Origin: Candidatus Moraniibacteriota bacterium
GTDB taxonomy: Bacteria > Patescibacteriota > Minisyncoccia > Moranbacterales > GCA-2747515
Length of the DNA: 54,286 nucleotides
NCBI GenBank assembly: GCA_947311515.1
Contig: CAMZLB010000016.1
Span: 1-54,286 of the forward strand
Direction of reading: 5' to 3'
In this document: positions 15,474-19,710 of the stretch, piece after piece
Position numbering within the stretch: the stretch's first letter is position 1
Layout of the letters: every line of letters starts with the position of its first letter
The notes under the pieces: model-generated
The model's database searches: none
What the model was told of the DNA's origin: nothing
Seen by the model: the letters and a program-made list of their open reading frames with translations, nothing else
Program-made: the position numbers and the translations under genes

Positions 15474-15497
15474 AAACCTAGTAAATTTACTAGGTTT
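15474..15497. terminator. Bidirectional terminator between convergent genes
   Basis: Perfect 24-nt palindrome AAACCTAGTAAATTTACTAGGTTT. Confidence 0.6.
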
Positions 15498-16677
15498 ATA
15501 TAGTTTCTTGAAGTTTTAAAATACCTCCTAATTGTCCTTCTGTAGGACCATGTTTGGCTGGAGCAAGTTTTACTCCTAAGACCTTGTTATTATGATCTAG
15601 TTTTAGAACTACTATAAATCCAGGAACGTCTGGAATATCTTTTCTAACGTTTGGATTCTGTAGATATCTCCTCACTTTAGTAATGAGTGACTTATTAAAA
15701 GTTTCATCTAAAGGCTTATTGGTATAAAAACATCTCCATAGTTCCCCTAGGTTTTTTTCTAGTTCTGAAACTGCAAATAGCACAATTTCAATACTTTTTG
15801 CTTTTTTAAATTTAAAATCAAATCTAATTTGATTAAACAAGTCTTTAGAGTTTTCTGTTGAAATAACCTTTACGTCTTCAACTATCCTAAAGCTATTTTT
15901 AATCAGAGCTGAAAGTTGTTTTTTTAAAGTCCCTGCTAGTATTAGGTATGTGTTTAAATACATACTTTTTTGACTATTAGTAGGAACCACCTTCCTTATA
16001 GTAGGTTTTTCCGCCACAACATATGCATGCATATGTATAGTAGCAAGACTTTGGCAATTTGCCAATTTATGTCTCTCTCCATTATAACCAATAGCTATGG
16101 AAATTTTTACATTTCCAAATTGGTTTAAAAAAAATAAACTATTTGTCAGTTTTTCACTGAATCTACGTAATACCGTCATTTTTTTTACTGTATTAAATTC
16201 CCTAAAGTTCACCCAGTTGATAACTTGGTCTTTTTCTAACATCCATATCACATGATGTGGAGGCACACTTTCTCCTTCATTGTTTCTGAAAGTACTGTCT
16301 AAAAGACTTAATACGTTAGTACCGAAGTACTTGTCATGTTTTTTGAAATATTCTAAGATAGAAATCTCTGTCTCCATGGGTATATGTGGCCTAGATCCTA
16401 ATGAAGTAAAAAAATAAGCTCCTTCTTTTTGAGATATATTTTCTATAGGAAATATTCCAAAGGACTGTTTTAAAATCGTTCTGTATACCTCACTTATGAT
16501 ATTAAAATCGAAATAATTCAAAACAAAATTTAATAAAATTAATTTATTGGTATTGTTTTTTTTAAAATGGGAATATAGTTTATTTAGTTTTGCACTATGG
16601 TCTACGCCTATTATTTCTGGCATCACTGGATGCATTGCTTTTCTTATTTTAAGTTCTTTTAATATATTTGTAGGCAT
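15496..16677 (-). CDS. Uncharacterised 393-aa protein, possible divergent HIT/GalT-like superfamily member
   Basis: Motif GYNGERHKLANCQSLATIHMHAYVV resembles HIT 'AGQS..H.H.H..' with third His replaced. Confidence 0.6.
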   Translation of the reverse strand: MPTNILKELKIRKAMHPVMPEIIGVDHSAKLNKLYSHFKKNNTNKLILLNFVLNYFDFNIISEVYRTILKQSFGIFPIENISQKEGAYFFTSLGSRPHIPMETEISILEYFKKHDKYFGTNVLSLLDSTFRNNEGESVPPHHVIWMLEKDQVINWVNFREFNTVKKMTVLRRFSEKLTNSLFFLNQFGNVKISIAIGYNGERHKLANCQSLATIHMHAYVVAEKPTIRKVVPTNSQKSMYLNTYLILAGTLKKQLSALIKNSFRIVEDVKVISTENSKDLFNQIRFDFKFKKAKSIEIVLFAVSELEKNLGELWRCFYTNKPLDETFNKSLITKVRRYLQNPNVRKDIPDVPGFIVVLKLDHNNKVLGVKLAPAKHGPTEGQLGGILKLQETI

Positions 16678-16741: not shown

Positions 16742-16770
16742 TTGTAAAAAAATTCTATTTAATGTATAAT
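16742..16770 (+). promoter_or_regulatory. Sigma70-type promoter for the thrS leader
   Basis: TTGTAA - 17 nt - TATAAT. Confidence 0.65.
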
Positions 16771-16776
16771 AAAAGT

Positions 16777-16975
16777 ACTTTTGATTGATGTGATTACCAA
16801 CCACATTTCATATCTATGAAGCCTGTATTCAGGACTAAGAAAGAAAATTAAGTGATTTTTGTAAGTATTCAATAATGAATTATGCAAAAATAATTTGGGT
16901 GGAACCGCGGAACATAACCTTTCGTCCCAAAGATATTTAGATTATCCTAAATATCTTGAGGGGGATTGGTTTTTT
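16777..16975 (+). promoter_or_regulatory. T-box leader (predicted tRNA-Thr responsive) of thrS
   Basis: TGGGTGGAACCGCGG at 16896-16910 with TTCGTCCCA partner at 16921-16929, ACC specifier candidate at 16796-16798, terminator hairpin plus T6 just before thrS. Confidence 0.85.
16918..16975 (+). terminator. Intrinsic terminator of the T-box leader
   Basis: CCC..AAGATATTTAG-ATTATC-CTAAATATCTT..GGGG..GG then TTTTTT. Confidence 0.7.
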
Positions 16976-16997
16976 AAATAGTTAATATATATGAATT

Positions 16998-18755
16998 ATG
17001 TCAGAAAAAAAAGAGTTATCATTAACTGAGAAGCGTCATACACTCGCTCATTTGCTAGCTGCTGCAGTAGAAAAATTATATCCAGATGCTCTTATAACAA
17101 TAGGTCCCGTTGTAGAAAATGGATTTTATTATGATATAGCTTTTTCAGAACAACCATCAGAGAAAGATTTGAAAAAAATCGAAAAACAAATGAAGAAACT
17201 TATAAATAGTTGGATTGAGATGAAAAAAGAAACTGTAACTTCGAAAAAAGCTAAAGAAATATTTAAAAACAATAAATATAAATTAGAACTTATAGAAGAA
17301 ATAGAAAAAAGGGGTGAAGAAATAGATTTATATACTTCAGGAGACTTTACTGATTTATGCAGAGGAGGTCATTGTTCAAATCCAAAAAAAGACTTAGACA
17401 TGAAAGCTTTTAAACTTGTTAAAATTGCTGGAGCATACTGGAGAAGTAATGAAAAAAATGATATGCTTACAAGAATTTATGGCTATGCATTCAACACAAA
17501 AGAAGAGTTGGATACTTACATGAAAATGTTAGAAGAAGCAAAAAAAAGAGATCATAGAAAACTAGGAAAAGAATTAGATTTATATGTGAATAGTGAAACT
17601 GTTGGTTCTGGATTACCTCTTCTTACTGAAAAAGGTTCAACTATCAGAAGAATTCTTGAGAGATTTATAGTTGATGAAGAAATAAAGAGAGGCTATAAAC
17701 ATGTTTATACTCAAGATATAGCAAAGGTGGATTTATACAAAAAATCAGGTCATTATCCATACTATAAAGATTCAATGTACCCTCCTATTAATATTGATGG
17801 AGAAGAATTTATGTTACGACCAATGACTTGTCCACATCATTTTGAATTATTTTTGAGTAAATCTCATAGTTATAAAGAGTTACCACTCAGATACGCTGAA
17901 ATTGCAAAGCTTTACAGGTATGAACAGTCAGGTGAATTATCTGGACTTATGAGAGTTAGATCATTTAATTTAGCGGATGCTCACATATTTTGTACAGGAC
18001 CCGAGCAAGCAGGTTCTGAAATTCATAAAGCTCTTGATTTAATAGAATTTGTAGCAGATAAATTTAATCTAAAAATGGGTAAGGACTATTGGTATAGTTT
18101 ATCACTTGGTGACCGAAATGAAGAAAAAAAGTATTTTAAAAATGATATTGCTTGGAATGAATCTGAATCTATTCTTAGAAAAGTTCTCAAAAATCGTAAT
18201 TGTAAGTTCATAGAAGAAAAATCTGAAGCTGCTTTTTATGGTCCAAAAATTGACGTACAAATGAAAAATGTATTAGGTAAGGAAGATACTGCCTTTACTG
18301 TTCAGTATGACTTTGTAATGCCTAAGAGATTTGATTTAGTTTATACAGATAAAGATGGTAAAAAAAAGAAGTGTGTAGTAATTCATCGCTCATCGATAGG
18401 TGCAATAGAGAGAATAATGGCATTTCTTATAGAAAGATATGCTGGAGCCTTTCCTTTGTGGTTATCTCCTGTTCAAATAATTATAATACCCGTATCTGAT
18501 AAATTTAATGATTATGGAGAAAAGGTAAAGGAAACTTTATTGAAAAAAGGTTTTAGGACTGAATTAAATAATGATTCTGAGACGCTTGGAAAACGTATTA
18601 GAGAGGCACAGAAAGAAAAAGTCCCTTATATGTTAGTGGTTGGTGAAAAAGAAGTGAAATTGGGTACTGTAGCTGTTAGATCTAGGGAAACTGGTGATGA
18701 AGGCGTACTGAAACTTGAGGATTTCATATTAAAAGCATCTAAAGAAAATGAGTAA
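16998..18755 (+). CDS. thrS: Threonyl-tRNA synthetase lacking the TGS domain
   Basis: RHTLAHLLAAAVEKLYPDA, FMLRPMTCPHHFELF, C-terminal anticodon-binding domain. Confidence 0.97.
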   Translation: MSEKKELSLTEKRHTLAHLLAAAVEKLYPDALITIGPVVENGFYYDIAFSEQPSEKDLKKIEKQMKKLINSWIEMKKETVTSKKAKEIFKNNKYKLELIEEIEKRGEEIDLYTSGDFTDLCRGGHCSNPKKDLDMKAFKLVKIAGAYWRSNEKNDMLTRIYGYAFNTKEELDTYMKMLEEAKKRDHRKLGKELDLYVNSETVGSGLPLLTEKGSTIRRILERFIVDEEIKRGYKHVYTQDIAKVDLYKKSGHYPYYKDSMYPPINIDGEEFMLRPMTCPHHFELFLSKSHSYKELPLRYAEIAKLYRYEQSGELSGLMRVRSFNLADAHIFCTGPEQAGSEIHKALDLIEFVADKFNLKMGKDYWYSLSLGDRNEEKKYFKNDIAWNESESILRKVLKNRNCKFIEEKSEAAFYGPKIDVQMKNVLGKEDTAFTVQYDFVMPKRFDLVYTDKDGKKKKCVVIHRSSIGAIERIMAFLIERYAGAFPLWLSPVQIIIIPVSDKFNDYGEKVKETLLKKGFRTELNNDSETLGKRIREAQKEKVPYMLVVGEKEVKLGTVAVRSRETGDEGVLKLEDFILKASKENE

Positions 18756-19710
18756 AGTAATTACAATTATAGGACCAACTGCATCAGGCAAGTCAGAAAT
18801 AGCAATTAAAATTGCAAAAGATTTTAATGGTGAAATTATATCTACAGATTCAAGACAAATTTACAAGGGTATGGATATAGGTTCAGGGAAAGAGTTTGGG
18901 AGAATTGAAAGATTAGGTAAAAGAGAAAATATTACTAGATACGCTTATATTTCTAGTGGTATTCCTCACTATATGATAGATATTTTGCACCCAAATACAG
19001 AGTATAATGTATCTAAATTCGTGAATAAGGCTCAAAAAATAAGAGCTGATATTTGGAAGAGGGATAAGAATCCCATAATCGCAGGAGGTACTATGTTTTG
19101 GGCACAAGCACTTGTAGAAAATAATACTTTTACTAAGGTTCCTCCAAATTATAATTTAAGAAAAAATTTAGAAATGAAGAGTGTGGAAGAACTTTTTGAA
19201 ATACTTAAAGATAAAGATTTGAGAAGAGCTAAAGAAATAGAGGGTAAAAATGAAATAAATAATAAAGTTAGACTGATAAGAGCATTAGAAATAATTGATA
19301 CTTTGGGGTACGTACCAGAACAAAAAAAAATAGAAATTAATTATAAGCATAATTTAATAATTGCAATCTCCCTGCAAAAAGAGATACTTTATAAAAAACA
19401 AGAGAAAAGAATGGATAAATGGTTTAGTAATGGGATATTTAATGAAATAAATACATTGCATACAGAAATGAATGTTCCTTGGTCTAGATTAGAAAGTTTT
19501 GGACTTGAATATAAATGGTGTACAAAATATATCAGAAACCAAATATCTTATGAAGAAATGAGAAAAAATACAATACATGATTTAAAAAAATATACCAAAA
19601 GACAACTTACTTGGATTAAACGATGGGAAAAACAATATACTAATATAAATTATGTAAAAAATTATGACGAGGCACAACAGTTAGTTAAAAATTTCTATTC
19701 TAATTCTTGA
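18748..19710 (+). CDS. miaA: tRNA dimethylallyltransferase
   Basis: TIIGPTASGKSEIAIKIAKDFNGEIISTDSRQIYKGMDIGSGK. Confidence 0.95.
   Translation: MSKVITIIGPTASGKSEIAIKIAKDFNGEIISTDSRQIYKGMDIGSGKEFGRIERLGKRENITRYAYISSGIPHYMIDILHPNTEYNVSKFVNKAQKIRADIWKRDKNPIIAGGTMFWAQALVENNTFTKVPPNYNLRKNLEMKSVEELFEILKDKDLRRAKEIEGKNEINNKVRLIRALEIIDTLGYVPEQKKIEINYKHNLIIAISLQKEILYKKQEKRMDKWFSNGIFNEINTLHTEMNVPWSRLESFGLEYKWCTKYIRNQISYEEMRKNTIHDLKKYTKRQLTWIKRWEKQYTNINYVKNYDEAQQLVKNFYSNS

Follow-up and report, generated by a model that had tools for sequence, protein, structure and literature searches.

A predicted tRNA-Thr-responsive T-box with a four-way-junction decoding domain upstream of thrS in a Patescibacteriota genome

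The analyzed stretch of DNA (54,286 bp, hereafter the window) corresponds to contig 16 in a Candidatus Moraniibacteriota genome of 1.2 Mb (96% complete). It carries a threonine--tRNA ligase gene, thrS, followed by miaA, which overlaps the end of thrS and is probably on the same transcript. On the opposite strand, a divergent open reading frame of 393 aa (15496-16677, minus strand) adjoins the thrS promoter; searches of Pfam and NCBIfam returned no family match for it. The promoter described in the initial annotation of this DNA was found in its entirety, and the RNA is expected to start at about 16776-16778. The features of the locus are as follows.

16742-16770, + strand: sigma70-type promoter, TTGTAA-17-TATAAT (sequence)
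16778-16843, + strand: four-way-junction decoding domain, P0 to P3 (covariance model R1, 53.4 bits; covariation)
16778-16787, + strand: 5' strand of P0 (CUUUU, bulge GA, UUG), pairing with 16836-16843
16788-16806, + strand: P1 specifier hairpin, AUGUGA-UUACCAA-CCACAU, with an A-C mismatch at the final stem position in this leader
16796-16798, + strand: ACC specifier (Thr codon) with A as the next base (sequence; matches the thrS amino acid)
16807-16820, + strand: P2 hairpin, UUCAU-AUCU-AUGAA (structural alignment)
16822-16833, + strand: P3 hairpin, CCUG-UAUU-CAGG (structural alignment)
16836-16843, + strand: 3' strand of P0, UAA and GAAAG (structural alignment)
16850-16894, + strand: AAGUG (RRRNG), Stem III (16855-16891) and AA (sequence, fold, RF00230 alignment)
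16895-16930, + strand: antiterminator, A1 UUGGG/CCCAA and A2 GCGGAA/UUUCGU with G-U at the base (RF00230 alignment, sequence)
16900-16906, + strand: T-box bulge, UGGAACC (RF00230 alignment, sequence)
16916-16975, + strand: intrinsic terminator, AACC..AAGAUAUUUAG/CUAAAUAUCUU..GGUU plus U6 (folds; overlaps the 3' strands of the antiterminator)
16998-18755, + strand: thrS (Pfam match; TIGR00418, 648 bits, cut-off 384)
18748-19710, + strand: miaA (TIGR00174, 174 bits)

The 3' half of the leader is canonical, since RRRNG, Stem III, the AA and the G-U pair at the base of A2 are all present, and the T-box region TGGGTGGAACCGCGG...TTCGTCCCA lies at 16896-16929. The Rfam check suggested in the initial annotation did give a match to RF00230 at 16844-16929 (39.7 bits; E = 2e-7 for a search space of 501 nt), but it covers the 3' half only (model positions 153-216) and stays far below the gathering score of 93; a scan of the whole window at this curated threshold did not report the thrS leader. 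The 11-bp AT-rich hairpin that had been described (AAGATATTTAG/CTAAATATCTT) is present and is followed by GGGGG and T6 (16970-16975), but the stem of the terminator extends further than had been described: beyond the 11 bp, UCCC pairs with GGGG/GGGA and AACC (16916) pairs with GGUU (16971), immediately 5' of T6. As the terminator takes the 3' strands of the antiterminator (shared positions 16916-16930), the two folds are mutually exclusive. In computed folds without tRNA, the terminator reached -41.6 kcal/mol and the antiterminator -25.2 kcal/mol, a difference of 16 kcal/mol that corresponds to the usual OFF default. Overall, the Rfam match, the exclusive folds and the gene assignment bear out the initial proposal of a T-box leader of thrS with antiterminator and terminator.

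A search of 97 relatives found thrS in 93, and some fifty of the leaders were read. Two kinds of thrS T-box were found among them, a class III-like kind with an ultrashort Stem I and a K-turn, and the junction kind seen in the window. Leaders of the latter kind have in common GAUUG, a hairpin with an nnACCaa loop, two more hairpins and CUAA. The flanks of GAUUG and CUAA, though differing, are complementary in nearly every leader (CUUUU/GAAAG, GUGAU/AUCAC, AUAAC/GUUAU, UCAGC/GCUGA) and therefore form a helix, P0, which makes a four-way junction. Across 28 thrS leaders the domain measures 60-80 nt, with P0 (carrying a 2-base bulge) enclosing P1, P2 and P3, and P1 is a 6-bp hairpin with ACC in a 7-base loop, mostly YUACCAA. 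The small hairpin TGATGTG-ATTACCAAC-CACATTTCA, initially taken as the site of the specifier, contains the real P1 but is not a stand-alone minimal Stem I. Similarly, the idea of a compact Stem I was correct insofar as there is no canonical long Stem I, but P1 is one arm of the covarying junction. In 25 of 26 aligned leaders a -10-like box ends 5-18 nt 5' of P0, so that the leader RNA begins with or near P0, and most of the 26 carry a perfect TTGACA as -35.

The fold goes back to a hand drawing based on 11 leaders, which preceded the search tests. MAFFT alone left P2 and P3 unaligned; we used structure-based, N-padded alignments and cross-checked them with a model-made alignment, two of the three alignments used for counting thus following the hand drawing. 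Among eight hand-aligned leaders, two-sided changes were found in 20 of 25 pairs and 93.5% of cells paired, compared with 69% after shuffling of the 3' letters and 32-50% in slid-partner controls; none of 500 shuffles reached the observed covariation score, and all slid controls scored far lower. Two-sided changes occurred in 22 of 25 pairs both in 14 model-aligned leaders and in a set of 23, and the proposed check by covariation across relatives therefore came out in favor of the fold. The inner P0 pairs UUG:UAA offer little proof, as they hardly vary and two of them never do. Roughly one leader in three fails to form the two outermost P0 pairs, P0 is weak in leader L160, and G10 may pair with C67 instead of U68 (L036 has A and U there). 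Plain RNAfold yields the junction as the minimum free energy structure for L036 and L062; for the isolated 66 nt of the window the junction has -7.9 kcal/mol versus a minimum of -11.8, so that here the fold rests on comparison.

To survey the domain, we built a covariance model (R1) from P0-P3 of eight leaders, without T-box or gene; L039, L108 and all leaders from the other order lay outside the training set. R1 gave significant matches in 10 of 132 genomes of the order and in 11 of 86 genomes of an order in another class, with more elsewhere in the class and phylum. Overall, the domain occurs in at least two classes, and in several orders, of this phylum of bacteria with very small genomes. 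These counts are lower bounds because the large searches used strict filters; L038 fits the domain by hand and was missed by R1. All matches below E = 5e-4 show ACC in a 7-nt loop and are followed by a T-box with UGGA. The first or second gene downstream is thrS, except at L164, where the contig ends before thrS, and at L163, where thrS is not reached within 1.5 kb and an acetyltransferase comes first, as it does before thrS in L162, L169 and L171. The acetyltransferase is of the GNAT type; in L156, as in these three, its gene separates the T-box from thrS, and in L163 it is found 3' of the T-box, apparently in one operon. The weak matches L153, L158 and L159 had neither T-box nor thrS and were discarded. 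Against 60 loci with other T-boxes R1 had no match at E<=0.1, and against class III-like thrS, ileS and aspS leaders none at E<=1. A codon-masked model (R2) returned only ACC/thrS leaders, adding L172 (a match to L173 was judged false); within the scope of these searches, threonine is thus the only amino acid for which the domain is used.

The ThrS tree departs from the grouping of the organisms, and leader type needs several changes on it. For example, the window ThrS groups with that of L167, from a genome of another class (56% identical, support 99). This pattern suggests that thrS, with its leader, probably moved between lineages. At L037 (genome G080), ThrS is 60% identical to that of the window, and no T-box motif was found upstream.

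All 28 leaders carry the ACC specifier in the P1 loop, in agreement with the threonine codon first assigned, and all 28 have a UGGA T-box. The anticipated pairing of UGGA with the UCCA end of tRNA-Thr is likewise matched in sequence, as both tRNA-Thr(GGU) and tRNA-Thr(UGU) of the same genome have U73. Among the 32 tRNA genes of this genome that were read, U73 is restricted to Thr, Gly and Cys tRNAs, and the combination of UGGA and ACC therefore indicates tRNA-Thr(GGU). At ileS and aspS, the T-boxes of this genome carry UGGU as opposed to the UGGA of thrS. U73 was also found on tRNA-Thr(GGU) in the other domain-bearing genomes read, where some of the tRNA-Thr genes encode CCA and the U precedes it; the exception is an odd second "Thr(ggt)" gene in L192 with G at position 73. 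We also considered an extended loop pairing. UUACCA of the window is complementary to UGGUAA (positions 33-38) in the anticodon loop of tRNA-Thr(GGU), but most relatives have CUACCA, which is only partly complementary to these bases, and A37 is normally modified in tRNA-Thr; the extended pairing is therefore not claimed.

As to the host range, initially regarded as potentially noteworthy, T-boxes are common in the phylum. They were found in 83 of 97 relatives, nearly all below the Rfam cut-off, and at E<=1e-5 in 87 of 288 genomes across the phylum. Only 9 of these 87 genomes have one above the cut-off, and annotation based on it therefore misses most. The genome of the window itself carries two class III-like T-boxes. 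One (L001, C2:13700-13865) lies 5' of ileS, with a short Stem I, the loop AUC, an S-turn Stem II and IIA/B, as well as a terminator-like hairpin and T-run, and may represent class III architecture serving transcription. The other (L002, C21:248-419) lies 5' of aspS and has the loop UCAACA with AAC (Asn) at the place of the specifier; its UGGU would form a U-G pair with G73 of tRNA-Asn, and the AAC suggests a non-discriminating AspRS serving tRNA-Asn. A genus of the same family has class III-like thrS T-boxes whose loops measure 8-9 nt (L042, L044, L045, L046 and L049), the specifier of L044 seemingly being ACU, not ACC. Within the junction kind, ten of the 28 leaders (L162-L166, L168, L169, L171, L154 and L155) have no Stem III, and almost all of these ten belong to the other order. 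These leaders mostly keep the flanking purines (e.g. GAGUGAAAC), and the distance from P0 to UGGN is 86-95 nt.

We consider it highly probable (about 0.85) that the leader is a tRNA-Thr T-box riboswitch which acts by terminating transcription and whose decoding domain is a four-way junction. The sequence elements, the covarying fold, the link to thrS, the codon and U73 are established by the analysis, and from them we infer that the leader binds tRNA, senses its charging state and permits read-through, and that the junction has a geometric role. The first 66 nt would fold into P0-P3 as RNA polymerase leaves the promoter, and P1 would offer ACC in its 7-nt, anticodon-loop-like loop to the GGU anticodon of tRNA-Thr. 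This loop-loop complex may resemble the one between tRNAs with complementary anticodons, which could help to explain why three codon-anticodon pairs suffice where no elbow clamp, S-turn or K-turn was recognized. The junction, and not a K-turn with Stem II or an elbow clamp, would position the codon loop for the 3' domain, setting the angle that a K-turn sets elsewhere. The 3' half of T-boxes senses the tRNA end (PMC7583486). If the tRNA is uncharged, its UCCA end, with U73, would pair with the UGGA bulge and hold the antiterminator, so that thrS-miaA is transcribed; the 3' end of charged tRNA could not dock, the terminator would form and transcription would stop.

Alternatively, the leader could be a class III-like T-box of the usual sort, diverged in its 5' half beyond what Rfam recognizes, with the junction a mistake of drawing. 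This idea gains from the presence of class III-like T-boxes at ileS and aspS in the same genome and at thrS in relatives. We regard it as improbable, given that the class III-like leaders tested were unmatched by R1 and that P0 encloses all three hairpins and covaries. The K-turn and S-turn Stem II of that class argue in the same direction, as neither was recognized here. At the place of a K-turn there is a 2-nt bulge with UUG:UAA and an opposite strand without GA, P2 directly abutting P1 so that no GA strand is available. P2 is a hairpin of 3-6 bp in 26 leaders, too short for an S-turn Stem II, while AGUA/GAA is present, together with a K-turn, in the ileS and aspS leaders of the same genome. 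As for the IIA/B pseudoknot, which carries no weight in this comparison, the P3 loop is variable and a look by eye revealed no partner.

Two other explanations are very unlikely. The E. coli thrS operator is a protein-bound anticodon mimic acting on translation, and our leader resembles it in being a tRNA-Thr-related RNA that controls thrS. The cloverleaf-like outline and the 7-nt loop resembling an anticodon arm would also suit such a tRNA-like operator, recognized by threonyl-tRNA synthetase; the loop, however, displays the codon ACC rather than the anticodon GGU, and the 3' part is a T-box with a terminator and a base matching U73, not a ribosome-site operator. A decayed, non-working relic would be in keeping with the sub-threshold Rfam score and the small genome, but codon, T-box and four helices have been kept by compensatory change over several orders.

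Four T-box classes are defined by Stem I/II architecture (PMC10482949). As neither IDTM, K-turn nor S-turn Stem II was recognized in the thrS junction leaders, the decoding domain, judged from its sequence, fits none of the published classes I-IV. Our literature search, outside of which most subscription papers fell, returned no paper on T-boxes in Patescibacteria or candidate phyla, and none that describes a four-way junction in a T-box leader. It is likely that these leaders are the founding set of a fifth class, co-transcriptional, with junction decoding and an anticodon-like codon loop, without IDTM, K-turn or S-turn Stem II, and in some members without Stem III and with a sensor of 86-95 nt from P0 to UGGN. 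In known T-boxes, codon-anticodon pairing is helped by an elbow clamp (IDTM), a Stem II S-turn or both (PMC10482949), transcriptional T-boxes generally need a long Stem I and Stem III has been called indispensable (PMC10482949, PMC7583486), and the question has been posed whether a T-box can function without a K-turn (PMC7583486). With a natural family of this kind, the requirements for IDTM or S-turn, long Stem I, K-turn and Stem III could be tested using RNAs of only 90-160 nt. The family would further reveal T-box control in the phylum that has for the most part gone unlisted, nearly all copies lying below the Rfam cut-off, and give a shorter part for tRNA-sensing designs.

Compared with class I (B. 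subtilis tyrS) and RF00230, the thrS leader shares the antiterminator, T-box bulge, RRRNG-Stem III-AA and terminator, but its entire Stem I/II half is replaced. Like class II (B. subtilis glyQS), it is transcriptional and lacks a Stem II domain; class II, in contrast, is glycine-specific, with a K-turn. The IDTM-bearing long Stem I of classes I and II, with its specifier in a side loop, is absent; instead, a 6-bp hairpin lies within the 66 nt that precede the linker. Nor does it match class IV, which has an intermediate Stem I and displays the specifier in a side bulge flanked by two helices, as the P1 loop is a closed apical loop of 7 nt. With class III (Nocardia farcinica ileS; PMC10482949, PMC7583486) it shares the absence of IDTM, the apical-loop specifier and the 3' discriminator logic. 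In class III, however, the specifier loop measures 5-6 nt, a K-turn, an S-turn Stem II and the IIA/B pseudoknot are present, and control is mostly translational (PMC10482949, PMC7583486), whereas the thrS leader has a 7-nt loop, a four-way junction and a terminator, with those motifs unrecognized. Also comparable are the class III-like thrS T-boxes of relatives (for example L106, L054 and L109), which serve the same gene with the same ACC, UGGA and loop ending in ACCAA, and in which, as drawn by hand, a K-turn (UUGA/CGAG type) and an IIA/B-like pseudoknot replace P0, P2 and P3.
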